The position numbers and the translations under genes are program-made. This document shows, piece after piece, positions 17,037 through 30,791 of a DNA stretch of 34,888 nucleotides. Source of the stretch: a virus; the IMG/VR virus record IMGVR_UViG_3300025128_000162, positions 1-34,888 of that record; one strand, written 5' to 3'. Each line of letters opens with the position of its first letter. Position 1 is the first letter of the stretch. The notes under the pieces are model-generated. The model searched no databases. It had not been told where the DNA came from and was given only the letters and a program-made list of their open reading frames with translations.

Positions 17037-17461
17037 ATCGGGTAACTGGTTGAGATTTGCTCTAGTGTGTGACTACGTACCTACAGCGCATGGACGTACC
17101 CCCCGCGAAGTCGGGGGTGGGGGGTCGCTCCCGCCCGCGATCAGGGGGAAAACTCCGCCCTTTCAGCGCTTTACATAACACTACTTACGCGAACCACAGC
17201 GCACTTGTGGTAATCAGAGGGGATCGAGTGTGCGGCTTTTGATTCTGTGATGCGCGAGTGTTTAAACATCCTACTATCACGCAACCGTTTAAACGCTAGG
17301 ATTCTAGGGGTTATTGCTTGCGCTCTCGCTTGTTTGAGCGTGTCGCTTTTGGGATGCTCTTTGTCGCGTATGGATACTTGTGGTTGACTTTTGGGAGTTG
17401 GCTTCCGTTGACGGATATGCAATACTAGAGGCTCTTTCAATGAGACTTATGAGGTTTAAAC
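17037..17461. other. divergent intergenic control region between terS and the early operon
   Basis: These 425 bases hold no convincing gene. They contain a G/C hairpin (CCCCCG, 6-base loop, CGGGGG, near 17101-17118) followed by a G-run, an exact 6-bp dyad ACCACA/TGTGGT at 17193-17211 with a 7-base loop, two GTTTAAAC copies 27 bases apart (17260, 17287), and a third (17454) next to the first early start codon. It should contain the promoters for the leftward late and the rightward early operons, and lies where a pac or cos site could be. Confidence 0.6.
17398..17426 (+). promoter_or_regulatory. weak candidate sigma70-type promoter for early operon
   Basis: TTGGCT (17398-17403) and AATACT (17421-17426) are separated by 17 bases, each matching four of six consensus positions, about 35 bases before the first early ATG. 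Other TTG-AC hexamers nearby (17384, 17408) have no -10 at usual spacing. This is a candidate only. Confidence 0.3.
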
Positions 17462-18058
17462 ATGACACGAATCAGAGACATGAGAACCCGCGAACAATGG
17501 CTAACCCGTGGGGTTGAGGTATTGAACGCTGAGGTATTCACCCCCGCTGATATGGGCATTGCTGAGAATGTCCGCGTTTCTGTGGGCTTTCCTAGTGGTC
17601 GAGGCGGGCGGAATAATGCAATCGGTCAATGTTGGTCGCCGTCTGTATCCGCAGATCAAACGATTGAGATGTTTATCTCGCCTTCAATAGATGATCCGGT
17701 CCGCGTTCTGGATATTCTCGCGCATGAGATGATTCACGCAATCGTTGGTCTTGAATGTGGACACAAAGGCCCGTTTAAACGATTGGCTAATGAGATTGGA
17801 TTGGTTGGCAAAATGACAGCCACGAAAGCAGGCGATGATCTAAAGGTCAAACTCCAAGCGATAGCGGACAAGATAGGCGACTATCCACACTCCGCACTAG
17901 ACCCAAAGGGCAAGAATAGCGCCCCAAAGCAAACCACGCGGATGCTAAAGATAGAGTGTCCAGAGTGCGACAACATAGCGAGACAATCAGCAAAAGCCTA
18001 TGAGCAATTCGGCTTGAGGTGTCAGGCTTGCGATGTCCGAATGTTTTATAACGGGTAG
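17462..18058 (+). CDS. SprT-like zinc metallopeptidase
   Basis: This 198-residue protein has the metallopeptidase motif HEMIH at residues 88-92 within DILAHEMIHAIVGLECGHKG, where the later His (101) can serve as third zinc ligand, as in SprT/SPRTN-like proteins. The C terminus carries CPEC and CQAC pairs (about 166-190), the zinc ribbon usual for SprT. Such proteins cleave DNA-bound proteins, and the phage role is unknown. It is the first gene of the early operon. GTTTAAAC lies immediately before the ATG and another copy lies inside the gene, encoding Phe-Lys at about residue 105. Confidence 0.85.
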   Translation: MTRIRDMRTREQWLTRGVEVLNAEVFTPADMGIAENVRVSVGFPSGRGGRNNAIGQCWSPSVSADQTIEMFISPSIDDPVRVLDILAHEMIHAIVGLECGHKGPFKRLANEIGLVGKMTATKAGDDLKVKLQAIADKIGDYPHSALDPKGKNSAPKQTTRMLKIECPECDNIARQSAKAYEQFGLRCQACDVRMFYNG

Positions 18059-18113: not shown

Positions 18114-18128
18114 AAGGACGTTTAAACG

Positions 18129-18338
18129 ATGGATATCTCAAACGTTTTGAAAGACAACCCAAACACGATTCATTCACCAGTCGCAGAAGGAATCAAGAAC
18201 GCCATGAAATTAATAATTCGTGAAGCGTCTTACATGGAAGACACGGGGGAAGAATTCTCTGATCCAGACAAGTACAACGCATTGGTCAGGATTCTTAATG
18301 CGTCTGAGGCTTACTTCCGAAACAACCTACACATTTAA
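18129..18338 (+). CDS. hypothetical early protein, 69 aa
   Basis: This is a small acidic, helical protein (MDISNVLKDNPNTIHSPVAE followed by a Met/Ile-rich helix and an EEFSDPDKYNALVRIL segment). No family is recognised. The start is preceded by AAGGAC-GTTTAAAC, the junction cassette of this operon. Such short early genes in temperate phages often encode host-takeover or regulatory factors, but nothing in the sequence shows a function. Confidence 0.7.
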   Translation: MDISNVLKDNPNTIHSPVAEGIKNAMKLIIREASYMEDTGEEFSDPDKYNALVRILNASEAYFRNNLHI

Positions 18339-18352
18339 GGAGTGTTTAAACA

Positions 18353-18658
18353 ATGATTCTTATTAACGTTAAGTATCACAGTGCAACCAATCGCAAAGGC
18401 TCACGATGGACGGCAACCATGCAAGACGATGTTATTGACGGCATCACAACCAAACTGCGTGCAACCGTTGGCTATGACCACGGTGACAAGGACAAACACG
18501 ACGGACGCTTAGAGGCGTGTCAACGTCTGATCGCCAAGTGGGACGCCAAACATTTAATGAGTATTGGTGGTAAGTACGGTTGGAAAATTGAGCAAGTGGG
18601 AGAAGATCACCGGCACGAGTATATCTTCACCGCTTACGCTGATTATGAGGACGTTTAA
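18353..18658 (+). CDS. hypothetical early protein, 101 aa
   Basis: This is a mixed alpha/beta-looking small protein with MILINVKYHSATNRKGSRW at the N terminus and a His/Asp/Lys-rich stretch (YDHGDKDKHDGRLEACQRLI). It ends Tyr-Glu-Asp-Val, the last two residues and stop coming from the GACGTTTAA part of the junction cassette. A strong AAGGAG ribosome binding site lies ahead of the octamer and ATG. The family is not recognised. Confidence 0.7.
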   Translation: MILINVKYHSATNRKGSRWTATMQDDVIDGITTKLRATVGYDHGDKDKHDGRLEACQRLIAKWDAKHLMSIGGKYGWKIEQVGEDHRHEYIFTAYADYEDV

Positions 18659-18660
18659 AC

Positions 18661-18915
18661 ATGCGCCTCTTTGAAACATGGCGAGACACACCGCCACACC
18701 CCATCACTTCAGTCAGGAAATGCCGGTTCTGTTTGGCAAGGACTGACGACAAGTGCGCCCACGGTAAAGAGGTAAACATCAACAGACCTTTTGACCGTGA
18801 TTATTCCTGCCATCTTTGGGACTGGAACGGAGGCGTATACAGCGCCGAAGAAGCAGAACAACAGGGGCGATTCATCTATTACGAATGGCTTAACAAACAG
18901 GAGTTTGTCAAATGA
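18661..18915 (+). CDS. hypothetical early protein with Cys motif, 84 aa
   Basis: Four cysteines (CRFC near residues 21-24, a Cys about eight later, one in YSCHLWDWNGG) suggest a small zinc-binding fold. The C terminus is rich in aromatic and acidic residues (GRFIYYEWLNKQEFVK). The start follows GAGGAC-GTTTAAAC. The stop overlaps the next start (ATGA). The family is not recognised, so a DNA- or protein-binding role would be speculation. Confidence 0.7.
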   Translation: MRLFETWRDTPPHPITSVRKCRFCLARTDDKCAHGKEVNINRPFDRDYSCHLWDWNGGVYSAEEAEQQGRFIYYEWLNKQEFVK

Positions 18916-19118
18916 AATCGACACCAACTGTAAACAAGTATCAATATCTGTGGATAGTTCAGGGTCATTACGGCTCTTATGGTTGGGAGGATTTGACCGC
19001 CTCAACCAATTACAGAGAGGCGCGAGATGACCTCAGAGACTACCGAGACAACGAACCATACCCGCACAGATTAATCAAACGGCGGGAGCCTAACCCCGCA
19101 TATCAGGAGGGCGCTTAA
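18912..19118 (+). CDS. hypothetical early protein, 68 aa
   Basis: This basic protein is rich in Tyr, Arg and Asp (YQYLWIVQGHYGSYGWEDL, then REARDDLRDYRDNEPYPHRL). The phrase 'Y.Y...QG.Y...GWED' followed by a helix with many Arg and Asp is common among small phage proteins of unknown role. It starts by a four-base overlap with the upstream gene and is one of two genes in this operon lacking the octamer cassette. Its stop lies in a one-base variant of the octamer (GCTTAAAC). Confidence 0.65.
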   Translation: MKSTPTVNKYQYLWIVQGHYGSYGWEDLTASTNYREARDDLRDYRDNEPYPHRLIKRREPNPAYQEGA

Positions 19119-19120
19119 AC

Positions 19121-19231
19121 ATGGACGCAATCTTTATACTCTTAATACTGTTCCTTCCTATTGCCTCAGTGGTTGCTATCATGTCGGCGATTGCTGAAGC
19201 GATTGAATACCTACAATCGGAGGACGTTTAA
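19121..19231 (+). CDS. very small membrane protein, 36 aa
   Basis: ATG at 19121 follows GGAGGGCGCTTAAAC, a good ribosome binding site plus the variant octamer. The product starts MDAIFILLILFLPIASVVAI, a single clear transmembrane helix, then a short acidic tail ending Glu-Asp-Val, whose Val and stop come from the octamer (GTT-TAA). It fills the gap between two cassette-bounded genes exactly. A superinfection exclusion or host membrane effect is possible but unproven. Confidence 0.7.
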   Translation: MDAIFILLILFLPIASVVAIMSAIAEAIEYLQSEDV

Positions 19232-19233
19232 AC

Positions 19234-19563
19234 ATGCAAAAGAAAAAGCACTATAAGCATTGGCGTATAGAAATTCTCGACGCTAATGATGAGACTGTTG
19301 ATGTTGACTACGTTCCAACAAAAAGAGAAGCCATGAAAATAATCAATCGTGAACTTAAAGATGAGAATCTATGGCAGATTAATCTTGAAAATGAGCGCGT
19401 AAATTATTGGGATTTTGGCGAACTTGGCACAGACATAATCAATGTAGATAACATCAGCAAGGAATCATTTAGGGGTAAGGCTCAAGTAAAAGATAGAATT
19501 GAGCGGGCTGAAGAAGCCGTAAACGATATCGTTTATAAGTTCTTATCAAAGGAGGACGTTTAA
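19234..19563 (+). CDS. hypothetical early protein, 109 aa
   Basis: This protein is Lys/Glu/Asp/Asn-rich and begins MQKKKHYKHWRIEILDANDE. It looks like a small alpha/beta fold followed by a helix (QVKDRIERAEEAVNDIVYKF). It has more A+T-rich codon use than the structural genes. It is bounded on both sides by the full GAGGAC-GTTTAAAC-ATG cassette. No family is recognised. Confidence 0.7.
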   Translation: MQKKKHYKHWRIEILDANDETVDVDYVPTKREAMKIINRELKDENLWQINLENERVNYWDFGELGTDIINVDNISKESFRGKAQVKDRIERAEEAVNDIVYKFLSKEDV

Positions 19564-19565
19564 AC

Positions 19566-19757
19566 ATGTACAAAATAGAACTAACCGTTGAAACTGAACA
19601 ACAGAAAAATGAAATCCTTGAACTTCTGCGCGAAAGCGAAGAGGATGGGATTTTAGATTTTTCGTTTAACACTTTGGTCAGCAATGCAGACCAAGATAAT
19701 GACTGGTACTCCGCTCAAGATGCGCTGATGGAGCATGACGGGGGGAGATCAGAATGA
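19566..19757 (+). CDS. hypothetical early protein, 63 aa
   Basis: This small acidic protein starts MYKIELTVETEQQKNEILEL, with a beta strand then helix pattern, and ends in a Glu/Asp-rich stretch. It starts from the full junction cassette and overlaps the next gene by four bases (ATGA). Function is not visible. Acidic small early proteins can act as DNA mimics, but the length and charge here are not decisive. Confidence 0.65.
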   Translation: MYKIELTVETEQQKNEILELLRESEEDGILDFSFNTLVSNADQDNDWYSAQDALMEHDGGRSE

Positions 19758-19999
19758 CAATCTATGTGATCTACGGTGGTATGGACTGCGATTGTGTGCA
19801 TTACGCTAACCGCACCACCTTTGAAAGTGTCTCTGAATACCTAGCATGGGATGAAATTGAACGGCTAGAAGCAGAAGGCCCATTCTATTCGTACGAGGTG
19901 AGCAAATCTGATTGGGATTTGCAGAACTATCTCCCTTTAAGCAGGGACTTAGCACTAGAGGCATTCGAAGAAGGACACCCGCACATCGTATACGTTTAA
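19754..19999 (+). CDS. hypothetical early protein, 81 aa; last gene of early operon
   Basis: This protein starts MTIYVIYGGMDCDCVHYANR, with a beta strand and a GGMDCDCV motif, then acidic helices (YLAWDEIERLEAEGPFYSYE). The ribosome binding site GGGGGGAG precedes the start, which overlaps the previous stop. The final Val and stop codon are the GTT-TAA of an octamer copy at 19994, though no gene follows it, so that copy is not needed as a start cassette. A hairpin and a strong terminator follow. Confidence 0.65.
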   Translation: MTIYVIYGGMDCDCVHYANRTTFESVSEYLAWDEIERLEAEGPFYSYEVSKSDWDLQNYLPLSRDLALEAFEEGHPHIVYV

Positions 20000-20008
20000 A
20001 CACACGGC

Positions 20009-20828: not shown

Positions 20829-20994
20829 CTTTGTATTCCCATAGGGTCTGGTTGTACTTGCGTTTAAACACTTCGGCCCAAGTGATACCACTCGGCGCGG
20901 TTTCGTTACGATGCGTGGCGCAGTGGCGGGCGAAGCACCTCTTCAAAAAAGCCGGTGACTTCCGGTACTCCTCTGAGGATATATCTATACTCAC
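20755..20994 (-). CDS. hypothetical small protein, 79 aa, overlapping both neighbours
   Basis: This frame starts MSIDISSEEYRKSPAFLKRC and includes GITWAEVFKRKYNQTLWEYK, which reads like real protein. It overlaps the helicase end by 89 bases and the nuclease start by 74, long for this genome. One GTTTAAAC copy (20862) lies inside in the Phe-Lys frame, one of the two frames used in all other genes here. It would link the helicase and nuclease genes, which otherwise are 77 bases apart. Confidence 0.45.
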   Translation of the reverse strand: MSIDISSEEYRKSPAFLKRCFARHCATHRNETAPSGITWAEVFKRKYNQTLWEYKDEFLETCREDGGETVGRDTDGVQR

Positions 20995-21928
20995 TACTAA
21001 ACCTCATTGTTGGGGGGTCAAACCAAAGGCTGAATTGTCCGGTCCAACCCTCATCGTGGCGTTGCTTTGCCACCTCAAGGAAGGTGGTTGGCATCTGCTT
21101 CATCTTGATGTAGTCCTCTGACAACGGATCGTTATCAGGATGGATCAGATAATCTTCCCGCTTGTAGTTGCGGCGGACTAGAAGCACGTTATCCACAAGA
21201 TCGGACAGTGACCCACTGCCTTTGATACTCCACTTGTCATCCCGTGCGTATTTGTTTTCGGGCTTGCGAACATGGGCCACCACGAATACATGCACTCCTG
21301 TATCCCGTGACACAGCCACCATATCGCTGATGAATTCCTGTTGCGCCCTGTTTAAATCATCTCCTTTGATCTTCAGCACACTCATGTTATCCATGATGAT
21401 CTTGGTGATACCCAACTCAAGCGCGGCATACCGCATGACACCTACCAGTGTGCGTTGGTCGATGCTCCCCATGTGGTTGTAGATCAGCATCCCTTTCGAT
21501 AGCCAGATCAGGGTCGAGGCAATGTCTTGATCGGTGACCTTTTCCATCCGCTTTGCTGTCGCTTGTCTCACGATCCGGCCAAGATTCTGCGCCGGACTCA
21601 TCTCAGGTGAAATGATCAGCACCCTCTCCTGTTTAAACTGTTTGTCTTTTCTCAAGAGATGGATCGCCATATCCGTGAGCAAGGCTGATTTACCTGATCC
21701 GTTCTGGCCCGCAACCAACGTCACCTCTTCATCACGGAACTTGATGTGGTCGTGGGTCTTTGACCACGGCATGACCCCGCCTTTCTTGGAGTCACCAAAG
21801 AACTGTTGCACCGTGTCCTCATGGAAATGTAAGGGGCTGACCACCTTGCCCCGCTCCGCCTCTGGTACGATGTACTTGTCGAAGTTCTCGATGTCATCGA
21901 AGTCCAGAAAAATATCCTCTTCATTCAT
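20906..21928 (-). CDS. DnaB/gp4-like replicative helicase (ATPase domain)
   Basis: This 340-residue RecA-fold helicase has Walker A GQNGSGKS at 74-81, the DnaB-like LIISPEMSPAQNLGRIVRQA, Walker B IIMDN at 177-181, VVAHVRKP at 216-223 (sensor region) and GSGSLSDLVDNVLLV at 237-251. No primase (Toprim) domain is present, so priming must come from another protein or the host. It is hexameric in known relatives and unwinds DNA at the fork. Its start overlaps the initiator gene by four bases. An octamer copy encodes Phe-Lys at about residue 98. Confidence 0.85.
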   Translation of the reverse strand: MNEEDIFLDFDDIENFDKYIVPEAERGKVVSPLHFHEDTVQQFFGDSKKGGVMPWSKTHDHIKFRDEEVTLVAGQNGSGKSALLTDMAIHLLRKDKQFKQERVLIISPEMSPAQNLGRIVRQATAKRMEKVTDQDIASTLIWLSKGMLIYNHMGSIDQRTLVGVMRYAALELGITKIIMDNMSVLKIKGDDLNRAQQEFISDMVAVSRDTGVHVFVVAHVRKPENKYARDDKWSIKGSGSLSDLVDNVLLVRRNYKREDYLIHPDNDPLSEDYIKMKQMPTTFLEVAKQRHDEGWTGQFSLWFDPPTMRFSSEYRYILRGVPEVTGFFEEVLRPPLRHAS

Positions 21929-22557
21929 ATCACGCCCACCATGTCGTCATCGACGGTTGATGTAGTTTCCAATGGGTCTTCCCATCGCCGCTGATTCAAA
22001 TAGGTGGCGGGGTATGGGATGAATTGTTTATCGGTGTGTTTAAACCGCACCTTTAAATCCTTGAGGATGTCATCAAGGTGAGTGGACACAGGACGGAAGG
22101 CTCTTAATGCGGCGGGCTTACCCGCCTTACGTGGATAGGCAGACCAGAACAGGTTGAACTCTGTTTCTTTTTTGTTGTTTGTTTCTTTTGTTCTTAATGT
22201 TTCTTTTGTATGTGGTCTGGTTTCCTTCAGTGTGGACTTATCCTCATTGTGGAGTAATCCATCTTGTCGTGTTTCCGGCATGATGGTAATTAAGCGATTA
22301 CTTATACACCCACCCTTATCACGTTCTATCTCCACCACCCATAGCCCTGCCTCTTCCAGTTGACGGCGGGCCTTATCGAATCGTTGCCGTCCCAAATTAA
22401 ACTGACCCATAATCTGTTCCCGTCTGACCATCCATGATGGCGGCATTGACTGAAGGTACGCCCATATTGCCAGTGAATCAGGGTTGTTTAAACGCTGAAG
22501 CACCCTGTTAGACAGGATGGTGTATGGTAGGTCTGGTTTAATTAGTTTGTATATCAA
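21925..22557 (-). CDS. replication initiator / helicase loader (phage O-like)
   Basis: This 210-residue protein has an N-terminal winged helix (about 10-85, WAYLQSMPPSWMVRREQIMG, then FNLGRQRFDKARRQLEEAGL) and a polar Lys/Thr/Glu linker. Its C-terminal block, FWSAYPRKAGKPAALRAF and later FIPYPATYLNQRRWED, is the usual end of phage replication initiators that load helicase. It probably binds the origin and delivers the DnaB-like helicase encoded next. The frame opens with TTG at 22557 without a clear ribosome binding site, so the exact start is unsure. It is the first gene behind the strong leftward promoter. Confidence 0.75.
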   Translation of the reverse strand: MIYKLIKPDLPYTILSNRVLQRLNNPDSLAIWAYLQSMPPSWMVRREQIMGQFNLGRQRFDKARRQLEEAGLWVVEIERDKGGCISNRLITIMPETRQDGLLHNEDKSTLKETRPHTKETLRTKETNNKKETEFNLFWSAYPRKAGKPAALRAFRPVSTHLDDILKDLKVRFKHTDKQFIPYPATYLNQRRWEDPLETTSTVDDDMVGVI

Positions 22558-22592
22558 CAGTTTACATTGCAGACGCAGTTATCCGTGCCGAC

Positions 22593-22621
22593 ATTATACC
22601 TAAACCACGTTAAGAATTCAA
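22593..22621 (-). promoter_or_regulatory. strong leftward promoter for replication genes
   Basis: On the minus strand, TTGAAT (22621-22616), a 17-base spacer and a perfect TATAAT (22598-22593) precede the replication initiator by about 36 bases. The -35 matches four of six. The operator-like dyad at 22624-22665 abuts it, so the repressor could shut it. Confidence 0.75.
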
Positions 22622-22623
22622 TC

Positions 22624-22665
22624 AATGTCAACCATGAAAAACAAATGTAATCTATGCTTGACATT
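22624..22665. promoter_or_regulatory. 8-bp inverted repeat AATGTCAA/TTGACATT, candidate operator
   Basis: AATGTCAA (22624-22631) and TTGACATT (22658-22665) are perfect inverted copies with 26 bases between. One arm contains the -35 hexamer of the rightward promoter and the other touches the -35 of the leftward one. This is the expected place for an immunity operator between diverging lytic and lysogenic transcripts. Confidence 0.5.
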
Positions 22666-22686
22666 CACCGCGTCTTTGGTTAATGT
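22658..22686 (+). promoter_or_regulatory. rightward promoter toward repressor region
   Basis: A perfect TTGACA (22658-22663), a 17-base spacer and TAATGT (22681-22686, three of six matches) lie 30 bases before the ATG at 22717. The -35 is embedded in the operator-like dyad. Confidence 0.55.
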
Positions 22687-22716
22687 ATTCTCACTACCCT
22701 TAATACAAGGATCGAA

Positions 22717-23121
22717 ATGAAAATATGTGCTGAACAACTCTGGGCGTTGAACAACGTGAAAAAACGTGCGAAAACAGACGACCAAACGAATGGCCTGCAG
22801 GAATTTCTTCCCGGCGAATATCGTTCCGCATTCGGGGAGAGAAATTTTCTGAGCGGAAACTTTTTCTACGAAGGTTCGAGAAATTTCATCGAAAGTTGGA
22901 ACCTTCTCGCGGCATGGGGTGGCCGAACGGGGTGGGGGAAAGACTCCGGCATTGACGGCCACATGACCACCGACCAAGCAAAAAATCTTTGGTCAAGATT
23001 TGGCGAGTGCGCGATCCAGTCAAACCATATGGACAACCACGAAACGAGTGGAGCAGATCGTAAAGACATTCGCGGGTGGAGTTGTGGATGCCCTTGTTGG
23101 TATTGCGAGCATCAGCCTTAA
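22717..23121 (+). CDS. hypothetical protein, 134 aa, Trp/Gly-rich with C-terminal Cys cluster
   Basis: The ATG is preceded by AAGGA at good spacing and by a promoter with perfect -35. The product is rich in Asn, Gly, Phe and Trp, has an imperfect internal repeat (GERNFLSGNFF and EGSRNFIESWN), and ends with the cluster CGCPCWYC, which could bind metal. No family is recognised. It lies between the diverging promoters and the repressor, so a role in the lysis-lysogeny decision is possible. A frame on the other strand is also open here, hence moderate confidence. Confidence 0.5.
   Translation: MKICAEQLWALNNVKKRAKTDDQTNGLQEFLPGEYRSAFGERNFLSGNFFYEGSRNFIESWNLLAAWGGRTGWGKDSGIDGHMTTDQAKNLWSRFGECAIQSNHMDNHETSGADRKDIRGWSCGCPCWYCEHQP
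22870..22906. repeat. inverted repeat GAAGGTTC/GAACCTTC inside hypothetical gene
   Basis: A perfect 8-bp inverted repeat (22870-22877 and 22899-22906) encloses a smaller TTTC-ATC-GAAA stem. Further dyads lie just upstream (TTCCGC/GCGGAA near 22824-22857). The density of dyads is unusual for a coding stretch and could reflect structured RNA or an origin. Confidence 0.5.
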
Positions 23122-23173
23122 TTAAACGGCAGTTGCAGACCCCCTGCCTTAACAAATACTGCGGAGATAAACA

Positions 23174-23581
23174 GTGGCAATTAACGATTTTCCAAAGAGG
23201 TTAAAAGAGGCGCGACAGCGCACTGGTTTAAACATGAGTGAGATGGCAAGGAGTTTGGGAGTGACAAGAGCGGCAGTAAGTAAGTGGGAGAAGGCAGACA
23301 CGGCGGATATTTCTGCGGTGAACATTGCCAAAGCCGCTATGCTCTTGGGTTGCTCAACGGACGAACTCATCTTAGGCAAGAAAACATCCGGTGCATTGCG
23401 TGTGGATTTATTAATGAAAGCAATGGCTGTAGTAGACGAAGCGTTTAAACAATTAGGCGTGGACGAAAGGGCGAAGGCTGTTGCCAAAGCCTACGGTATG
23501 CTAGTGAGAGGGCATGAGGTTGATGCTGACTTCATTACTGATGATGTCATCCAATCCCGCGCTACTGGTTTGACGGACTAA
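23174..23581 (+). CDS. XRE/Cro-CI family repressor
   Basis: This 135-residue protein has an N-terminal helix-turn-helix of the XRE type at about residues 7-60 (LNMSEMARSLGVTRAAVSKW, then LLGCSTDELILG). The rest is a short helical C terminus, not a LexA/S24 peptidase domain, so RecA-stimulated self-cleavage of the lambda type is not expected. The GTG start has GGAG about eight bases ahead. Likely role: lysogeny repressor acting on operators around 22.6 kb. Two GTTTAAAC copies (Leu-Asn and Phe-Lys frames) lie inside the gene. Confidence 0.8.
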   Translation: MAINDFPKRLKEARQRTGLNMSEMARSLGVTRAAVSKWEKADTADISAVNIAKAAMLLGCSTDELILGKKTSGALRVDLLMKAMAVVDEAFKQLGVDERAKAVAKAYGMLVRGHEVDADFITDDVIQSRATGLTD

Positions 23582-23593
23582 GGAAACTAGGGG

Positions 23594-23622
23594 TTGACAA
23601 TGAGATCGGGTATCTGTACAAT
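23594..23622 (+). promoter_or_regulatory. strong rightward promoter, likely giving a near-leaderless message
   Basis: A perfect TTGACA (23594-23599), a 17-base spacer and TACAAT (23617-23622, five of six) lie just after the repressor stop. The expected transcription start is about 23629, and the DUF1364 ATG is at 23631. This is the probable promoter of the recombination and nucleotide metabolism operon. Confidence 0.75.
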
Positions 23623-23630
23623 GCTTCCCC

Positions 23631-23918
23631 ATGTCAAAGATCAGAGCGTATGCCAGAGGGATGCAGTGTCAGGTCAGGATACCCATGATCTGCACAGGCG
23701 ATCCAACGCAATCGGTCATGGCCCACTACCGTTTGGCAGGTTTAAACGGGGTGGGTCAGAAGCCGCCCGATTTTATGGTGGCGATAGCCTGTCATGGTTG
23801 CCACGATGCAGTAGATGGGCGGATGAAAGCCCCATACGACAAAGAAACGTTGAGGCTGTATCACGCAGAAGGGGTGTTCAGAACTCAGAACCTCCTCCAT
23901 CTGGACGGGTTGCTATGA
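23631..23918 (+). CDS. YbcO-like DUF1364 putative nuclease
   Basis: This 95-residue protein carries the DUF1364 pattern MQCQVRIPMICTGDPTQSVM then MAHYRLAGLNGVGQKPPDFM, AIACHGCHDAVDGR and GVFRTQN. Cys13, Cys21, Cys54 and Cys57 are placed to bind zinc, and the CHGCHDAVDGR block looks HNH-like. YbcO-type proteins are encoded in lambdoid phage recombination regions and are predicted nucleases. It is followed by NinB, the same neighbourhood. The stop overlaps the NinB start (ATGA). The start codon lies within about two bases of the predicted transcript start. Confidence 0.85.
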   Translation: MSKIRAYARGMQCQVRIPMICTGDPTQSVMAHYRLAGLNGVGQKPPDFMVAIACHGCHDAVDGRMKAPYDKETLRLYHAEGVFRTQNLLHLDGLL

Positions 23919-24286
23919 AGTTTCGGGCGCTGACTGACAGCAGGTTTTCGTTTGAGTCCACTGTCAATTCTATTCGACAAGCGTGGGATACAGCACAGGT
24001 GCATGAGGTTATCGTCAGGCCATACAAGTACAGCCGCTCACTTGAGCAGAACAATATGTTTCACGGGCTTTGCCGAGACATTGCAAAGGAGACAGGCAAC
24101 AGCGTTGCCGAGATCAAGGATTACTGTAAGGAAAACTTTCTAGGTGTCTCATCCTACGAGTTTAAGGGTGAGGTAAAACAACGTCTGCGGTCAACCAATG
24201 AACTGACCACCGACGAGATGTCTGAACTAATTGCGAGAACTGAGGCTCTCGCAAGCGAACTAGGAATTGAAAATGCAAGCACTTAA
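23915..24286 (+). CDS. NinB-like recombination protein
   Basis: This 123-residue protein contains the NinB family core VIVRPYKYSRSLEQNNMFHG, GLCRDIAKETGNSVAEIKDY and CKENFLG, with a STNELTTDEMSELIARTEAL C terminus. NinB (lambda Orf) binds ssDNA and SSB and replaces RecFOR functions in phage recombination. It is shorter than lambda NinB (146). The start was chosen at the ATG overlapping the DUF1364 stop. Its companion SSB-like and exonuclease genes follow, forming a recombination cluster. Confidence 0.85.
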   Translation: MKFRALTDSRFSFESTVNSIRQAWDTAQVHEVIVRPYKYSRSLEQNNMFHGLCRDIAKETGNSVAEIKDYCKENFLGVSSYEFKGEVKQRLRSTNELTTDEMSELIARTEALASELGIENAST

Positions 24287-24494
24287 AGATAACAACGTCA
24301 TGGACAACACCCTCTTCTTTGTCGAGCGTGATGCGGCTGAGAAGTTAGCGACCGATGCGTTCAGAGGAAGGGACGGTGATCTGCAAAAGATATATGCAGA
24401 GCATGTGCGGGATGCCGCAAGAGTTTGGGGATTCAAGAACAAGATTGACCCCGCCGACATCTTGAACATCTTGGGGATCAAAGATGAAGTTTAA
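24273..24494 (+). CDS. hypothetical small protein, 73 aa
   Basis: The chosen ATG (24273) has AGGAA seven bases ahead and overlaps the NinB end by 14 bases. A Met nine codons later is possible. It is a charged helical protein with FFVERDAAEKLATDAFRGRD and IDPADILNILGIKDEV. The stop overlaps the exonuclease start by 11 bases, so it is part of the recombination operon. The family is not recognised. Confidence 0.6.
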   Translation: MQALKDNNVMDNTLFFVERDAAEKLATDAFRGRDGDLQKIYAEHVRDAARVWGFKNKIDPADILNILGIKDEV

Positions 24495-25332
24495 GAACAA
24501 GGCAAACCTTCCCGAATGGGTGGTGCGTGGTCTGACGATGGACAACTACGCCAGAGGCGCACCCCCTTTCGACATCAGCGCGACAGGTTTAAACGACTCG
24601 TCCATGATCCGCACCCTGATGAAGAAGCACAAGGGTGAGATAGAGAAGGAGGCATTAGACATGCTCCCTTCTGCGATGGGTACGGCTATTCACTCCATCT
24701 TTGAAGAGGCTAACGTCAACAACGCTGATGTCGTGTGCGAGAAACGCCTGTACTTTGAGGTGGATGGCTACACCATCTCGGCACAGTACGATGTCTATGA
24801 GGGGCGGCTTGCGAAAATCACCGACATTAAAACTACGTCCGTATGGTCAATTATATTTGACAAAGGTAGTCAATGGGAAGCGCAACTGAACATCCAAGCC
24901 TATGCCGCCAAGCAAAACGGGATGGAAGTGGAGTCGCTTGAGGTGTGCGCCATCTTGAAAGACTGGCAGAGATCGAAGCAATGGGATGACGGCTACCCCC
25001 GCAACCCCGTCGTCATGGTTCCGATTGCACTGTGGTCAGAAGCACAGACGCTCGACTACATAGGCGACAGGTTGCGTGTTCACTTTGACGATGAGCCTAC
25101 CTGTACTGACGAAGAGAGATGGAAGAAGCCAGACAAGTGGGCAGTCAACAAGGACGGTAGGAAGTCTGCTGTCCGTGTACTTAATTCAAAGGAAGAAGCA
25201 GAACAGTACATGGAAGAGAACGGTTTAAACAACGATGCCCATCACATCACCCATCGAGTAGGTGGGTATACCAGATGCGGCGATTACTGCACGGTGTCTG
25301 ATTTTTGTCCACTCAACCCCAAACCTTTTTAG
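24484..25332 (+). CDS. Cas4/RecB-like PD-(D/E)XK exonuclease
   Basis: This 282-residue protein has the RecB-family nuclease motifs in order: His70 in GTAIHSIFEE, Asp103 in SAQYDVYEG, Asp114-Ile-Lys116 in ITDIKTTSVW, and the QLNIQAYA motif (134-141). The C-terminal Cys265, Cys269 and Cys275, with Cys85 as possible fourth ligand, resemble the Fe-S cluster ligands of Cas4/AddB proteins. It is a likely 5'-3' exonuclease making ssDNA for annealing with the DUF2815 and NinB proteins. Two octamer copies both encode Gly-Leu-Asn. Confidence 0.85.
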   Translation: MKFKNKANLPEWVVRGLTMDNYARGAPPFDISATGLNDSSMIRTLMKKHKGEIEKEALDMLPSAMGTAIHSIFEEANVNNADVVCEKRLYFEVDGYTISAQYDVYEGRLAKITDIKTTSVWSIIFDKGSQWEAQLNIQAYAAKQNGMEVESLEVCAILKDWQRSKQWDDGYPRNPVVMVPIALWSEAQTLDYIGDRLRVHFDDEPTCTDEERWKKPDKWAVNKDGRKSAVRVLNSKEEAEQYMEENGLNNDAHHITHRVGGYTRCGDYCTVSDFCPLNPKPF

Positions 25333-25340
25333 GAGTAAGC

Positions 25341-25826
25341 ATGGATATTGTGAAAGTTGAAACTGGCCCGACTCGGGTGATGTTCCCGAACCTCTCTGAG
25401 ACAGAGAAGTTTGAGGGCGAAGACACGCATCGCTACACGGTGACGATGAGGTGGCCCAAAGAATCTGATGATGCCGCCGCCATTGAGAAGGCGTTTAAAC
25501 AAGCAGACCAGACAGACGGCGCGGGTCACAACCCAATCAAGGAAGGGAACAACGAGTACACCGAAGGACAGATCGTGGTCAAGGCTAAGACCAAGCGTCC
25601 GCCTACCGTAGTGGATCAGGATGGGAACGACATTGATCCATCACGAATCGAGACAGGTGATACCTGTCGCTTGAAGATTGGCTTCCTTCCCTATGAAAAA
25701 GGGCCGAACAAAGGGGTGACGGTTGTGTTCAGTGCCGTTCAGTTATTGCAGAAGCGTGGCAACAAGGATGAGTTCAGCGAAGTACCTGAACAGTTCCGTG
25801 GCGCATCAGATGACTTCCCCTTTTGA
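25341..25826 (+). CDS. DUF2815 ssDNA-binding protein
   Basis: This 161-residue protein begins MDIVKVETGPTRVMFPNLSE and has the family style of an OB-fold DUF2815 protein: YTVTMRWPKE, GHNPIKEGNNEYTEGQIVVK, then LKIGFLPYEKGPNKGVTVVF. It ends Asp-Asp-Phe-Pro-Phe, close to the acidic SSB tip that recruits partners. A member from phage Enc34 has been shown to bind ssDNA. The start is the ATG with AGGAGT five bases ahead. An in-frame upstream TTG extension overlapping the exonuclease gene was rejected. Confidence 0.8.
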   Translation: MDIVKVETGPTRVMFPNLSETEKFEGEDTHRYTVTMRWPKESDDAAAIEKAFKQADQTDGAGHNPIKEGNNEYTEGQIVVKAKTKRPPTVVDQDGNDIDPSRIETGDTCRLKIGFLPYEKGPNKGVTVVFSAVQLLQKRGNKDEFSEVPEQFRGASDDFPF

Positions 25827-25998
25827 GGTCATCGAACTACAGAACTGCAAAGTTCAAGTCCCAAGACGTAGCGTACATCGTGTGTCCAACGGGACGGATC
25901 ACACAGAGGTAACGCTTTGGGATGGCACGGTCATCGAGACTGATGATCGTTTAAACATTATGGAAAAACTGTGGGGTGACGGGGAGTCTCCACGGTGA
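25810..25998 (+). CDS. hypothetical small protein, 62 aa
   Basis: The ATG at 25810 lies 17 bases before the end of the DUF2815 gene. The protein MTSPFEVIELQNCKVQVPRR, then VTLWDGTVIETDDRLNIMEK, looks like a compact beta-rich domain. No family is recognised. An octamer copy encodes Leu-Asn near the C terminus. It is followed immediately by a long hairpin, so it probably ends the recombination segment. Confidence 0.55.
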   Translation: MTSPFEVIELQNCKVQVPRRSVHRVSNGTDHTEVTLWDGTVIETDDRLNIMEKLWGDGESPR

Positions 25999-26074
25999 GC
26001 GGCGGCATCGGAGGATTGATTGGGCCTGTCACCTGATCTCGCATTTACCCGATCAATCCATCCGCCGCATTTTT
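25999..26074 (+). terminator. long imperfect hairpin, terminator or attenuator before RNR gene
   Basis: A left arm GCGGCGG...GGATTGATTGGG (about 25999-26025) pairs imperfectly with CCCGATCAATCC...CCGCCGC (about 26048-26068), followed by ATTTTTC. The stem exceeds 15 pairs with a bulge on the left arm, and the T-run suggests partial termination. The RNR ribosome binding site follows within 10 bases, so folding could also affect its translation. Confidence 0.6.
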
Positions 26075-26085
26075 CAAGGAGAAGC

Positions 26086-27966
26086 ATGAACACATATCAG
26101 GAGTTTATTCATAAGAGTCGGTACGCTCGTTACTTGGACGAGCATCAGCGGCGTGAGAATTGGGACGAGACTGTGGACAGATACATCTCATTCTTTGAGA
26201 GGCGCACCAAACTAAAGTTGGATCAGTTACGCAAAGCCATCATTGACATGGAAGTCATGCCAAGTATGAGGTGCATGATGACAGCGGGCGATGCGCTTGA
26301 CCGTGACAACGTGGCGGGATTTAACTGCGCGTACACTGCCATTGATTCGCCCCGTGCTTGGGATGAGATCATGTACATCCTCATGTGTGGGACAGGCGTG
26401 GGCTTCAGCGTTGAGCGTCAGTACATCAACCAGTTACCCGAAGTCGCGCCCACCTTCCACGATACGGAGACAGTGATCCATGTCCGTGACTCAAAGATTG
26501 GGTGGGCCAAAGCACTAAAGGAACTTATCTCCCTGCTGTATGCGGGGCAGGTTCCGACTTGGGACTTATCCAAGATCAGACCTGCGGGCGCACGACTCAA
26601 GACATTCGGAGGCAGAGCGTCAGGGCCAGAGCCACTTAACAATCTGTTTAAACATTTCGTCGGCGTATTCAAAGCGGCGGCGGGTCGCCGTTTAAACAGT
26701 ATCGAATGTCACGATCTAGTCTGCTTCATTGGAGAAGCGGTAGTCGTGGGCGGCGTGCGTAGGAGCGCCACCCTATCCCTGTCCAACCTGACTGATGAGC
26801 GGATGCGTCACGCCAAGAGCGGGCAGTGGTGGACAGAGAATCCGCAACGTGCGTTGGCTAACAACAGCGTGTGCTATACCGAGAAGCCAGACATGGGCAT
26901 CTTCATGCGGGAGTGGACTGCCCTGTACGAATCTCGCAGTGGTGAGCGTGGCATCTTCAATCGCAATGCCACCAAGCGTCTGCTTCCAGAGCGGCGCGAT
27001 GATGGCTACGACTTCGGCACAAATCCGTGTTCGGAAATAGTATTGAGAGGGCCACGTTTAAACGCCAGTGGTCAACCGATAGTTGGATCAGGCGGACAGT
27101 TCTGCAATCTCAGTGAGGTCGTGTGCCGTGATGGTGACAGTATTGCGGACATCACTCGCAAGGTGAGACTCGCCGCCATAGCCGGAACATTGCAAGCCAC
27201 ACTGACTGACTTCAGATATCTCTCCCCTTCATGGAAGCGGAACACAGAAGAGGAAGCCCTGCTAGGTGTATCACTGACGGGCATCATGGATTGCCCCGCC
27301 CTAATGAACGCATCAGAAAAACAGTTGAGGTCGCTACGTGATACAGCCGTCCAAACGAACAAGGAGTGGGCAGGTAAATTGGATATCAATCACTCTTGCG
27401 CTGTTACTTGCGTTAAGCCTTCTGGCACTGTTTCTCAGTTGGTTGGCTGTAGCAGTGGCATCCACCCTGCTTATGGTGATTACTATATCCGCCGTGTTCG
27501 CAATGACAAGAAAGACCCGATCAGCCAAGCGCTGATTGACGCGGGCATCCCTTATCAAACCGATCCGTACAACGATAGTGCGTGGGCGTTTGAGTTCCAC
27601 CATAAGTCAGCATCAGGATCACTAACCCGACACCGTTTAAACGCCATTGAACATTTGGAAATATGGAAACGCTTTGCGCTTCACTGGTGTGAACATAAGC
27701 CAAGCGTCACGGTCTACGTGAAAGAGGATGAGTGGATGGATGTAGGAGCGTGGGTGTACAACAACTTTGACATCCTGTCTGGCGTGTCCTTCCTTCCATC
27801 GGCGGATGATGCACACACCTACGAAGCGGCTCCTTATGAGGACATCTCTCGTAAAAATTTCAAGCCACTGTCAACTACAGTTGACTGGAACAAGGTGATC
27901 GAAGCAGACGATACGACGATTGCGTCACAAGAACTAGCCTGTACCGGAGGGGCTTGCGAGATATGA
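26086..27966 (+). CDS. adenosylcobalamin-dependent (class II) ribonucleotide reductase
   Basis: This 626-residue enzyme reduces ribonucleotides to deoxyribonucleotides for phage DNA. Key residues match the monomeric lactobacillar-type enzyme: Asn313, Cys315 and Glu317 in NPCSEI (radical site), Cys81 and Cys340 as likely redox pair (GFNCAYT, FCNL), and the C-terminal Cys619/Cys624 of CTGGACEI. VKPSGTVSQLVGCSSGIHPA is also typical. ATG at 26086 has AAGGAG seven bases ahead. It needs host vitamin B12 but neither oxygen nor a second subunit. Four octamer copies lie inside, encoding Phe-Lys or Leu-Asn. Confidence 0.92.
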   Translation: MNTYQEFIHKSRYARYLDEHQRRENWDETVDRYISFFERRTKLKLDQLRKAIIDMEVMPSMRCMMTAGDALDRDNVAGFNCAYTAIDSPRAWDEIMYILMCGTGVGFSVERQYINQLPEVAPTFHDTETVIHVRDSKIGWAKALKELISLLYAGQVPTWDLSKIRPAGARLKTFGGRASGPEPLNNLFKHFVGVFKAAAGRRLNSIECHDLVCFIGEAVVVGGVRRSATLSLSNLTDERMRHAKSGQWWTENPQRALANNSVCYTEKPDMGIFMREWTALYESRSGERGIFNRNATKRLLPERRDDGYDFGTNPCSEIVLRGPRLNASGQPIVGSGGQFCNLSEVVCRDGDSIADITRKVRLAAIAGTLQATLTDFRYLSPSWKRNTEEEALLGVSLTGIMDCPALMNASEKQLRSLRDTAVQTNKEWAGKLDINHSCAVTCVKPSGTVSQLVGCSSGIHPAYGDYYIRRVRNDKKDPISQALIDAGIPYQTDPYNDSAWAFEFHHKSASGSLTRHRLNAIEHLEIWKRFALHWCEHKPSVTVYVKEDEWMDVGAWVYNNFDILSGVSFLPSADDAHTYEAAPYEDISRKNFKPLSTTVDWNKVIEADDTTIASQELACTGGACEI

Positions 27967-28160
27967 GAGAGACACCATTTCACTACGACAACGGCATTGA
28001 GCCGATCAAGTTCATTCAGTCGCATGGGCTTAACTTTGCTGAAGGCAACGTCATCAAGTACATGGTGAGATACAAGAGCAAGGGAACAGCGCGGGAAGAT
28101 TTACTCAAAGCCCGCGACTACATCAACCTGCTTCTTTCGGAGTGGGGCCATGAAGATTGA
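27963..28160 (+). CDS. DUF3310 small phage protein
   Basis: This 65-residue protein has the pattern FHYDNGIEPIKFIQSHGLNF, EGNVIKYMVRYKSKG and DLLKARDYINLLLSE. This is the DUF3310 family, often called nucleotide kinase-like in phages although the activity is unproven. Its start overlaps the RNR stop (ATGA), and co-translation with RNR fits a nucleotide-metabolism or DNA-synthesis role. Confidence 0.8.
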   Translation: MRETPFHYDNGIEPIKFIQSHGLNFAEGNVIKYMVRYKSKGTAREDLLKARDYINLLLSEWGHED

Positions 28161-28377
28161 ATGGGGCAAGGGATCAGGCTTCAACTTGGGAAGGGTTGAG
28201 GGTACGGACTACAGGGTGGAGAGGATGAAGGGCATGGACAATAAGCATGGCTTTCTACTATCTGACTCCAAGAAAACCTACCTGTATGTAAGCGGCTGTA
28301 TCTACAGCACATCCGAAGAACGTGACACAGCCATCCATAGAGAGGTACGCAATCGTGAACTTGCTAATAATTCCTGA
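28150..28377 (+). CDS. hypothetical protein, 75 aa
   Basis: This small basic protein starts MKIEWGKGSGFNLGRVEGTD with a beta-rich middle (HGFLLSDSKKTYLYVSGCIY) and a charged helix at the end. It overlaps both its neighbours (11 bases with DUF3310, 23 bases with the phosphoesterase). No family is recognised. Confidence 0.6.
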   Translation: MKIEWGKGSGFNLGRVEGTDYRVERMKGMDNKHGFLLSDSKKTYLYVSGCIYSTSEERDTAIHREVRNRELANNS

Positions 28378-29137
28378 CGCTCATGCTTCAGCGGACTACG
28401 ACAACGAGAGGTTCAATGCGTTGGGTGAGTTCGTGGTCAAGCACAGGCCCGACACCATTGTGTGCTTGGGTGATTGGGCGGACATGCCTAGCCTCTCGCA
28501 CTACGACAGAGGCACTAAGGGCTTTGAAGGTCGCCGCTACCGTAAGGACATTCAGTCTGTCATAGATGCACAGGATCAATTCTTCTCTGCGATCCGCGCT
28601 CACAATAAACAGAAACGCAAGAACAAGGAGAAGCAGTACAAGCCCAAGTTGTACATGACGTTGGGTAACCATGAGGACAGGATTGACCGCGCCGTCAACG
28701 CTCAAGCAGAACTGCACGGCACGATTGGAATGTCCGATCTGCAATACGAGAAGTACGGGTGGAAATGCACACCGTTTAAACGGTCGCTTACCCTGCACAA
28801 TATCTCCTTCTCGCACTACTTCTCATCTGGTGTATCAGGCAGACCCATCTCCAATACGCACGTTGGCTATGCGCTCATCTCCAAACTCCATTGCTCTGCC
28901 GTACAGGGTCACTCGCACCTGTACAACCACGCAGAACAGACCCGCCCTGATGGACAAAAGATATTTGGATTAAGCGCGGGCTGTTACTCCCACCAGAGAT
29001 ACACGGAGGGATGGTGCAAGGACACTGAGCATACGTGGTGGCGTGGTGTGGTGATGCTCAAAGGTCTGGACGGTGAAGGGTACTACGACGAAATCCAATC
29101 CATCACGCAAAGGAGGTTGCTACGTGCCGACGCATGA
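28355..29137 (+). CDS. calcineurin-like metallophosphoesterase
   Basis: This 260-residue protein has the metal-binding motif series: Asp8-x-His10 in IIPDAHA, Gly-Asp40-x-x-Asp43 in CLGDWADM, GNHED in TLGNHEDR, and GHSH in VQGHSHLYNH. The GTG start at 28355 was chosen because the metal motif normally lies within the first 10 residues and GAGAGG precedes it. Family members cleave phosphomonoesters or diesters, and some phage versions act on nucleic acids. The substrate here is unknown. It follows RNR and DUF3310 and precedes a nuclease-like gene. Confidence 0.85.
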   Translation: MNLLIIPDAHASADYDNERFNALGEFVVKHRPDTIVCLGDWADMPSLSHYDRGTKGFEGRRYRKDIQSVIDAQDQFFSAIRAHNKQKRKNKEKQYKPKLYMTLGNHEDRIDRAVNAQAELHGTIGMSDLQYEKYGWKCTPFKRSLTLHNISFSHYFSSGVSGRPISNTHVGYALISKLHCSAVQGHSHLYNHAEQTRPDGQKIFGLSAGCYSHQRYTEGWCKDTEHTWWRGVVMLKGLDGEGYYDEIQSITQRRLLRADA

Positions 29138-29519
29138 AACGCAGAAGGATAGGGATAACGAGCAAGCCATCATGTCCATGATCTATCCCCATGCTCAGAA
29201 GTTATCGAACTTCTACCGATTCGATTACTTCATAGATGAGCCGCCGTGCGTGTACGAAGTGAAGTCACGCAAGAAGAAGTACCCCACTTGGTTTGTCTCA
29301 CTGTCAAAGGTGATGGTCGGTATGAACTATGAGGGGGTGGGGTTAGCCGCGTTCTTTCTGGTACGCTTTGAGGACACGGGAGAGATATTCAGAGTACGCC
29401 CCGCCACCACTGAGTTCACCTACGAATGGGGCGGAAGCAGTCGCGGTGACCCCGCTGACATTGAGCCGCTTGCTGTGTTTAAACTTGCTGATATGGAACC
29501 GATAACGGCTCCACATTAG
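29124..29519 (+). CDS. PD-(D/E)XK-like small nuclease (putative)
   Basis: This 131-residue protein starts with GTG behind AAAGGAGG, a near-perfect ribosome binding site. FDYFIDEPPCVYEVKSRKKK has an acidic residue followed by Glu45-x-Lys47, the core of PD-(D/E)XK nucleases, then a helix and strand (FVSLSKVMVGMNYE, AAFFLVRFED). A role in DNA processing is plausible, but the other catalytic residue is not certain. Its last 41 bases overlap the convergent integrase gene, and the shared segment contains a GTTTAAAC copy. Confidence 0.55.
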   Translation: MPTHETQKDRDNEQAIMSMIYPHAQKLSNFYRFDYFIDEPPCVYEVKSRKKKYPTWFVSLSKVMVGMNYEGVGLAAFFLVRFEDTGEIFRVRPATTEFTYEWGGSSRGDPADIEPLAVFKLADMEPITAPH

Positions 29520-30414
29520 CGGCTGTACCTGCCAGATAAATACGAGTGGTGTTCACATCCGAATGATCTGCTAACTCCATAGCCGCATGGATGTCGTGGC
29601 TCTGTCTGCGACACTGCAAGGCGAATCGTCTGAGGTCTTTGAACTGAAGGTCTTGGATGTTCGCCTTTACTTTTGCCCGCCGCCAAGCAGACCTGATAGC
29701 GTACTCGTTTAAACGCCCCCCTCTTGAGTTGGTCAATGGGTAGGTCAGAGACTTGAGGAAGGGTGTCCACTTGAACAGGATGGGTCTGCCTGTCTTGCTT
29801 ACATCAACGAGCAATCCCTGATCCTTAACACAGGATTCATCAAGAGAAATGATGTCACCCTGACGCAGTGCGGTGGTCACAGCCACATCAATAGCCACCT
29901 TCATCCATTGCGGTGAAGCGGCCCTCATTGCCCTCACATCGTCCACTAGCACAGCCATAACCCTCTTGGGTTCTTCTGCGCGGATAACGCCTTTACAGGG
30001 ATTTGAGGCGCACCACCGCTTAATCAGCCCCACCCTGTACGCTCCTGATAGGGGGGCTAGTTCCCTGTTCGCCTGATAGCCGCGCTCCCATACATGCTCA
30101 CAGAGCATGGCCGTGGTCACATCATCCATGGCATACCACCCATACTTCTCAACCCACATCTCTATGTGCCGCTCGTAGTCAATCTGAGTAGAGATCGCAA
30201 GTCTGCGGAAGTCCTTGCTTTTCGTGTATTCAGCCAAAGCCTCTGTGACTGTGCGTCCTCCGCCCTCATGCCGCGCCCACTTCTGCATCGCAATCTTGCG
30301 GTCTTTACCAAGACTCACCCACTTGGTTTTGCCGTCCACCTTTGGGGTGTAGTAGTACGTCCCCGCCTTCTCTTGCATCCTGACAGGGAGATCGTTTTTG
30401 CGTGGTCGAGCCAT
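29479..30414 (-). CDS. int: tyrosine recombinase integrase
   Basis: This 311-residue phage integrase has a core-binding domain at about 55-145 and a catalytic domain with Arg184 (TALRQGD), Lys207 (KTGR), Lys259-Asp-Leu-Arg262 (Lys instead of the usual first His), His284 (ADHSDVNTT) and nucleophile Tyr293. The gene starts about 80 bases from a tRNA-Lys fragment that supplies attP. Its stop codon is the GTT-TAA of a GTTTAAAC copy at 29477. It overlaps the convergent nuclease-like gene by 41 bases. A second octamer (29707) encodes Leu-Asn. Confidence 0.9.
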   Translation of the reverse strand: MARPRKNDLPVRMQEKAGTYYYTPKVDGKTKWVSLGKDRKIAMQKWARHEGGGRTVTEALAEYTKSKDFRRLAISTQIDYERHIEMWVEKYGWYAMDDVTTAMLCEHVWERGYQANRELAPLSGAYRVGLIKRWCASNPCKGVIRAEEPKRVMAVLVDDVRAMRAASPQWMKVAIDVAVTTALRQGDIISLDESCVKDQGLLVDVSKTGRPILFKWTPFLKSLTYPLTNSRGGRLNEYAIRSAWRRAKVKANIQDLQFKDLRRFALQCRRQSHDIHAAMELADHSDVNTTRIYLAGTAANVEPLSVPYQQV

Positions 30415-30435
30415 GCAGATATTGTTCTACATCTT

Positions 30436-30458
30436 CTATAATTTGGCAAGAATTATAG
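30436..30458. repeat. inverted repeat CTATAATT/AATTATAG between integrase and attP
   Basis: A perfect 8-bp inverted repeat with a 7-base centre (TGGCAAG) lies 22 bases before the integrase start. On the minus strand it contains TATAAT, so it could be an integrase promoter with its operator, or an arm-type or excisionase binding site. No good -35 is visible. Confidence 0.6.
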
Positions 30459-30460
30459 AC

Positions 30461-30487
30461 AAAAAAAAAGACTCACTCTCGTAAGTC
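30461..30487 (-). terminator. intrinsic terminator downstream of tRNA fragment
   Basis: On the minus strand GACTTAC (30487-30481), the GNRA-type loop GAGA and GTGAGTC (30476-30470) form a 7-pair stem with one G-T pair, followed by nine T. It lies just beyond the tRNA 3' end. It would end leftward late transcription before the integrase and may be the captured terminator of the host tRNA gene. Confidence 0.9.
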
Positions 30488-30494
30488 CTTGATT

Positions 30495-30545
30495 TGGTGG
30501 GCCGTGCAGGGATCGAACCTGCGACCCGCTGATTAAGAGTCAGCA
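30495..30545 (-). other. attP core: 3' half of tRNA-Lys(CTT)
   Basis: On the minus strand the sequence forms an anticodon stem GCTGA/TCAGC (30544-30528) around the loop CTCTTAA (anticodon CTT, Lys), a variable region, a T arm GCAGG-TTCGATC-CCTGC, and an acceptor end finishing in CCA at 30495. The D arm and 5' acceptor strand are missing, so it is not a functional gene. A tRNA 3' half beside an integrase is the classic phage attachment site that restores the host tRNA on integration. Confidence 0.9.
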
Positions 30546-30554
30546 CTCAGGATG

Positions 30555-30788: not shown

Positions 30789-30791
30789 AAA

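Follow-up and report, generated by a model that had tools for sequence, protein, structure and literature searches.

Why do several gene junctions in one small operon of a phage share the same stop/Shine-Dalgarno/start cassette? The window (the whole stretch of DNA analysed, a 34,888-base IMG/VR virus record) carries its late genes on the minus strand (~0.4-17 kb) and, on the plus strand, a small-gene operon at 17.4-20.0 kb; replication, recombination and nucleotide genes come next. The nearest relatives of its portal protein are those of Pelagibacter podoviruses (41% identity). As an integrase and an XRE-type repressor are encoded, the phage is probably temperate. The cassette had been described as complete at three junctions and present in variant form at four others, and this is confirmed: GAGGACGTTTAAACATG occurs exactly at three sites (Table 1), and the genes at 18353-18658, 19121-19231 and 19234-19563 all end with Glu-Asp-Val and a stop codon through GTT-TAA, as had been noted. 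When up to 3 mismatches are allowed, six window sites match GAGGACGTTTAAACATG, against 0.10 expected from shuffling. The octamer GTTTAAAC, to which the original prediction gave too little weight, is the broader feature, and the cassette is one of the contexts in which it occurs.

The octamer, a perfect palindrome, is the top-ranked word of the record. It is found 32 times in the window against 0.55 expected from dinucleotide shuffles, and one-mismatch versions number only 7. Thirty of the 32 copies fall within 17.2-31.6 kb, the late genes containing few. By position, seven copies lie at gene junctions, two in the leader of a gene encoding a SprT-like protein (see below) and 23, on both strands, in coding sequence; a start codon directly follows six of the 32. 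In the four relatives tested statistically (77-91% identical), octamers are kept above background 8-mers: 21/24 against 47% in G001, 11/11 against 51% in L006, 9/14 against 18% in L007 and, weakly (p=0.04), 6/13 against 21% in G002. Raw counts in G012 (8/8 against 58%) and L022 (7/9 against 27%) go in the same direction. Since octamers are kept more than other 8-mers, the octamer itself appears to be under selection.

Table 1. Octamers, cassettes and associated genes of the window.
Feature	Position	Strand	Remarks
Octamer GTTTAAAC, leader upstream of SprT-like gene	17260..17267		Not conserved in G001 or L022
Second leader octamer of SprT-like gene	17287..17294		Not conserved in G001 or L022
Octamer directly 5' of SprT-like gene ATG	17454..17461		In variant cassette at 17448, no gene upstream
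SprT-like zinc metalloprotease with C-terminal zinc ribbon	17462..18058	+	phrog_6361; proposed octamer reader
Variant seam AGGAC-GTTTAAAC-G-ATG	18114..18131	+	Gene-loss joint in G001, G012, L022
Variant seam GGAGT-GTTTAAAC-A-ATG	18338..18355	+	Opposite side of gene loss seen at 18114 seam
Exact cassette GAGGACGTTTAAACATG (Glu-Asp-Val-stop, SD, start)	18647..18663	+	
Variant cassette GAGGGCGCTTAAACATG, octamer altered to GCTTAAAC before ATG	19107..19123	+	Upstream gene ends EGA-stop
Exact cassette GAGGACGTTTAAACATG	19220..19236	+	Near side of 19234-20001 gene-block loss in G001
Exact cassette GAGGACGTTTAAACATG	19552..19568	+	
Octamer forming stop of gene 19754-19999 (VYV-stop), no start after	19994..20001		Far side of G001 gene-block loss
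20 more octamers, chiefly inside replication, recombination, nucleotide-metabolism and integrase genes	20862..31519	both	At 20862, 21631, 22038, 22486, 23226, 23443, 23740, 24587, 25223, 25493, 25949, 26646, 26690, 27056, 27635, 28774, 29477, 29707, 30872, 31512
XRE/CI-type repressor	23174..23581	+	Weighed as general octamer reader, rejected

A scan for cassette DNA yielded contigs of 35-51% GC, several of them without nucleotide similarity to the window. Protein comparison identified 17462-18058, the SprT-like gene, as the window gene most often common to these contigs; the link between octamer and protein could therefore be tested in both directions. In the forward test, IMG/VR loci were fetched by alignment to the SprT-like protein alone, ignoring the octamer. 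Enrichment was scored (Poisson against a second-order Markov expectation, four-fold Bonferroni, p<1e-3) for the one best variant per locus, the variants GTTTAAAC and GTTTACAC having A or C at position 6. Fifty-two of 77 SprT loci were enriched, 26 in GTTTAAAC and 26 in GTTTACAC, and the octamer often ranked at the top of all 8-mers. The controls gave 0/78 for relatives of the HTVC010P terminase (a narrow set made of one phage's close relatives and mostly late genes) and 0/9 for relatives of a replication initiator (Fisher p=6e-24). Many of the 25 non-enriched loci are short; L243, L256 and L277 exceed 15 kb and show no octamer excess in the presence of the KQxTR motif described below.

The converse test started from IMG/VR contigs with a pair of GTTTAAAC copies within 12-36 bases. 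With this pair discounted, 38 contigs among the matches listed were enriched and 76 were not; the SprT alignment was searched against all 38 enriched records and 45 of the 76 that were not enriched. Among the matches listed, the SprT-like protein was found in 22/38 enriched contigs against 0/45 non-enriched ones (p=3e-10; in both tests p-values overstate independence, many loci being kin to each other), including all six enriched contigs of at least 30 kb. The 16 octamer-rich contigs with no SprT match, again among the matches listed, are all shorter than 25 kb and therefore probably fragments, although a SprT-independent case may be among them. The SprT gene also seems to be absent from G009, where the octamer cluster starts at the contig end, at a position homologous to G006 2171 and about 1.4 kb short of the SprT position in G006; this absence thus probably reflects truncation of the contig.

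In several named phages GTTTAAAC or GTTTACAC ranks first or second among 8-mers in excess: Methylophilales phage Venkman (34 copies against 1.7 expected), Dinoroseobacter R26L (20 against 0.02), Arthrobacter YesChef (26 against 0.13) and likewise Pixelle, Streptomyces JackieB (41 against 0.05), Microbacterium Barnstormer, phage 4A and Burkholderia Mica. SprT is the sole family near-universal in octamer-rich phages, the runner-up, a primase/helicase, being found in 12 of 23. Unlike the other octamer-rich phages compared, which have SprT, G036 has only the ribbon part. A search of the open-access literature found no published description of GTTTAAAC or GTTTACAC repeats in phages.

In two host genomes the word is concentrated mainly in blocks that look like prophages. 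In Arthrobacter sp. EPSL27, 18 of 43 GTTTACAC copies lie in a single 30-kb block that holds the SprT gene, and in Pseudarthrobacter siccitolerans the copies are clustered in blocks on SprT-bearing contigs. Going by their SprT gene and octamer density, the blocks of these two Arthrobacter-type genomes would be prophage-like. No such GTTTACAC cluster was found in the Sphingomonas and Novosphingobium genomes of the same search. EPSL27 (G112) has a second cluster, seven GTTTACAC in 19 kb (C4:1365980-1384725), possibly another prophage.

The window SprT-like protein has the HExxH zinc-binding motif (HEMIH, residues 88-92), and H88, E89, H92 and H101 are invariant in the SprT-like alignment (A1). 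A zinc-ribbon module, KQTTRM...C..C...C..C, spans about residues 156-198. The protein matches PHROG 6361 at 1e-48 and Pfam SprT-like (PF10263) weakly (18.6 bits, E 0.0018, cut-off 25.6); the Venkman homologue scores above the Pfam cut-off (38.3 bits, 1e-9). AlphaFold returned a confident two-part model of the full protein (mean pLDDT 92) and a moderate one of the ribbon modelled alone (pLDDT 82, pTM 0.50). Neither model found a match at E<=0.001 in a PDB fold search, and a sequence profile of the protein gave chance matches only against the PDB. Phage records matching the SprT-like protein number 163, and we found no established role for such phage genes in the open-access literature. Like SprT-like/Spartan proteins (PF10263), the window protein has the HExxH core; unlike them, its family has the KQxTRM zinc ribbon, an association with one DNA word, and protease-dead as well as protease-free versions.

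The protease-free versions come from three octamer-dense contigs (G036, with 42 octamers in 19.8 kb, G037 and G048) that match the C-terminal 45 residues only. They encode stand-alone ribbons of 55-58 aa counted from ATG (frames of 60-63 codons) with the pattern KQ[TS]TRLRKV.C...YIARISRST...G.PICP.C; phrog_34373 is a similar orphan ribbon family. Six non-redundant full-length homologues have no HExxH, and their contigs hold 10-21 octamers. The KQxTR motif is missing from the SprT-like proteins of Microbacterium Dismas, Eden, Coltrane, Franklin22, Bordetella CN1 and Pseudomonas Epa5, whose genomes have no more than a single copy of GTTTAAAC or GTTTACAC, this loss being confined to few clades among the named phages. 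For 111 non-redundant proteins, enrichment was seen with 80/87 that have KQxTR and 16/24 that do not (p=0.004); for bacterial genome contigs the figures are 10/20 and 3/60 (p=2e-5), kinship being ignored in both comparisons. Seven enriched loci have no clear KQxTR (L059, L209, L212, L225, L249, L275, L386), several with kindred forms such as KGSRL. The octamer association maps to the ribbon rather than to the protease part of the protein. Genome contigs of Limnohabitans, Polynucleobacter and other Burkholderiales (L450, L454, L480, L484 and similar) harbor SprT-like relatives without KQxTR; 57 of the 60 genome loci without the motif are not octamer-enriched.

The SprT genes themselves often have an octamer nearby: one lies within 150 nt upstream of 39/91 SprT genes (some of them related) against 9.4 expected from density. 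In L048 it falls between TTGACA and a TATAAA-like box, and in YesChef and relatives it comes immediately downstream of a -10-like TAGACT; a protein bound at either position would obstruct RNA polymerase. Beyond such SprT-gene cases no general octamer preference for promoters was found, and in several octamer-rich phages octamers prefer neither promoters nor starts. Use of the A or C variant agrees with the SprT tree (8 changes against a shuffled mean of 23.5), as does GC content. Mutual information, dominated by phylogeny, yielded no clear determinant among the residues for variant specificity. Two pairs of sister SprT proteins, L239/L252 and L267/L273, come from loci with different octamer variants and would be useful for finding such residues.

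We consider it probable that the octamers are a dispersed operator network addressed by the SprT-like protein. The address would be GTTTAAAC or, in phages that are mostly GC-rich and largely actinobacterial, GTTTACAC, and the C-terminal zinc ribbon (KQxTRM-K-C...C) is predicted as the part most likely to bind it in double-stranded DNA. Placement of the octamer at the putative SprT promoter, between -35 and -10 or just past -10, in many phages fits autorepression. Protein bound at ribosome-binding sites and within genes would stop or modulate transcription. In the window, as in some other phages, the site is packed between Shine-Dalgarno and start, giving the stop/SD/octamer/ATG cassette, and the octamer can serve as the joint when genes with such a 5' site are gained or lost. 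A further version, possible but rather unlikely, would make the ribbon-bound SprT-like protein a sequence-addressed protease acting on proteins on phage DNA, e.g., host silencers or proteins that are stalled or crosslinked there; in some phages the ribbon by itself would have been put to use as a regulator. The two-way octamer link gives phage SprT-like genes a testable function and singles out a zinc ribbon of about 45 residues as a candidate DNA-binding module; the natural series of full-length, protease-dead, ribbon-only and KQxTR-less forms, together with the GTTTAAAC/GTTTACAC specificity switch, lends itself to dissecting that function in laboratory phages of Arthrobacter.

A precedent for such a network exists in the stoperators of cluster A mycobacteriophages (L5, Bxb1, TipsytheTRex), more than 20 short dispersed sites, located at promoters and at other places, which are proposed to stop both initiation and elongation (PMC9283540). 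The window, with its 32 octamers, likewise has over 20 dispersed short sites. Stoperators differ in being asymmetric 13-mers oriented with transcription and lying in promoters and short intergenic spaces, whereas the octamer is an 8-bp word, a perfect palindrome in its GTTTAAAC form, and often found inside genes. Moreover, their reader is a helix-turn-helix (HTH) immunity repressor, and the octamer-linked gene encodes a zinc-ribbon SprT-like protein. Unlike cluster A stoperators, the octamer is also present in R26L, which we take to be virulent.

Reading of the octamer by some other phage or host protein, such as a CI/XRE repressor on which the SprT-like protein acts, would also account for the co-occurrence. 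Repressors are the targets of ImmA-type proteases; the window, probably temperate, encodes an integrase as well as an XRE repressor, the SprT-like protein is a metalloprotease, and placement at promoters suits a repressor. We nevertheless regard this as unlikely, as no other family is common to octamer-rich phages, and octamers are kept in phages whose ribbon stands alone or is attached to a dead protease domain. The window XRE repressor was rejected as the reader: it is found in close relatives only, and no such family is shared among octamer-rich phages. The exact copies and scarce one-mismatch versions would suit a host-driven or mutational word, or a methylation target, and the octamer resembles HIP1-type words in being an exact octanucleotide palindrome in large excess. 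Unlike these, GTTTAAAC and GTTTACAC are tied to one gene and concentrated in phages and in the prophage-like blocks of the two Arthrobacter-type genomes; this distribution and the paucity of copies in the window late genes make such an origin very improbable. No methyltransferase was detected among the window ORFs scanned, and both the methylation target and the host word were dropped as candidates. We give equally little credence to a role in translation like that of the start-associated sequences (SAS/ESAS) of cluster K mycobacteriophages, which are repeated with a Shine-Dalgarno at starts of non-structural genes only and sometimes include the stop codon of the gene upstream (PMC3203893, PMC11373665). 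These phages, too, have a gene for a SprT-like protein (PMC3203893, PMC11373665); no cluster K phage is among the organisms named in the tblastn matches listed for the window protein. Start-adjacent octamers do contain or abut a Shine-Dalgarno, and window octamers concentrate in non-structural genes as SAS do (PMC3203893). However, SAS are non-palindromic 13-mers, virtually all at starts, that include the Shine-Dalgarno, and their consensus, GGGATAGGAGCCC, is a different word; octamers are palindromic and mostly away from starts. A translation-only role was discarded, most octamers being intragenic and on both strands.

The original prediction proposed that the junctions look like modular seams that could let small genes be swapped through short homology while fixing translational coupling. 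Comparison of operons of related phages did not reveal an unchanged gene order with unconserved octamers; instead, four gene gains or losses in close relatives (75-97% identical) are joined exactly on one octamer, which supports this part of the claim. G001 is devoid of window 18128-18351 and 19234-20001; each joint keeps a single octamer, with the left flank from one junction and the right flank from the other. Segments are missing at the same 18120 seam in G012 and L022. An octamer lies within 12 bases of 11/36 unique clean indel joints (all from related octamer-rich contigs) against 1.2 expected at random positions, a null that is too weak because most junctions in the operon carry an octamer. 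Recombination at octamers is thus partly supported: the same data fit gene turnover at octamer-bearing gene boundaries, and a unit of octamer plus gene would yield the same joint products. Octamers could, in this way, explain one route to interchangeable ends of small phage genes. As to the seam being the octamer's main role, the Shine-Dalgarno/octamer/ATG arrangement is in excess in the window family (16 against 1.1 expected), G004 (8 against 0.3), G007 (8 against 0.5) and Venkman (6 against 0.4), but many octamer-rich phages (G006, G018, G019/G021, Barnstormer, L292), which make little or no use of seams, have it about as often as expected by chance. The octamer tracks the SprT-like gene instead, a tie to one protein family that a seam leaves unexplained; with most window copies intragenic and eight bases being short for homologous recombination, we find this role quite improbable.

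Other repeats were seen near starts or SprT genes. In Mycobacterium phage Adephagia (L065), where the top 10-mer is GGGATAGGAG, SAS/ESAS-type elements occur in the regions 14240-14350 and 14800-14935: TGTTGACATGCATACAG...CTGTATGCATGTCAACA followed by GATAGGAGCCCACA stands before the start of the SprT gene gp75, and gp76, the gene after it, has an element of this type in front as well. In L051 (7373-7725), an iteron-like array just upstream of the SprT-like gene consists of about 24 tandem 15-bp units with GCAAACCTG. Finally, GGAGTCAG is repeated 6-9 times in L049, L050, L052 and L053; at G021 7847-7880 it occurs shortly 5' of an ATG and looks like a separate start-associated sequence.
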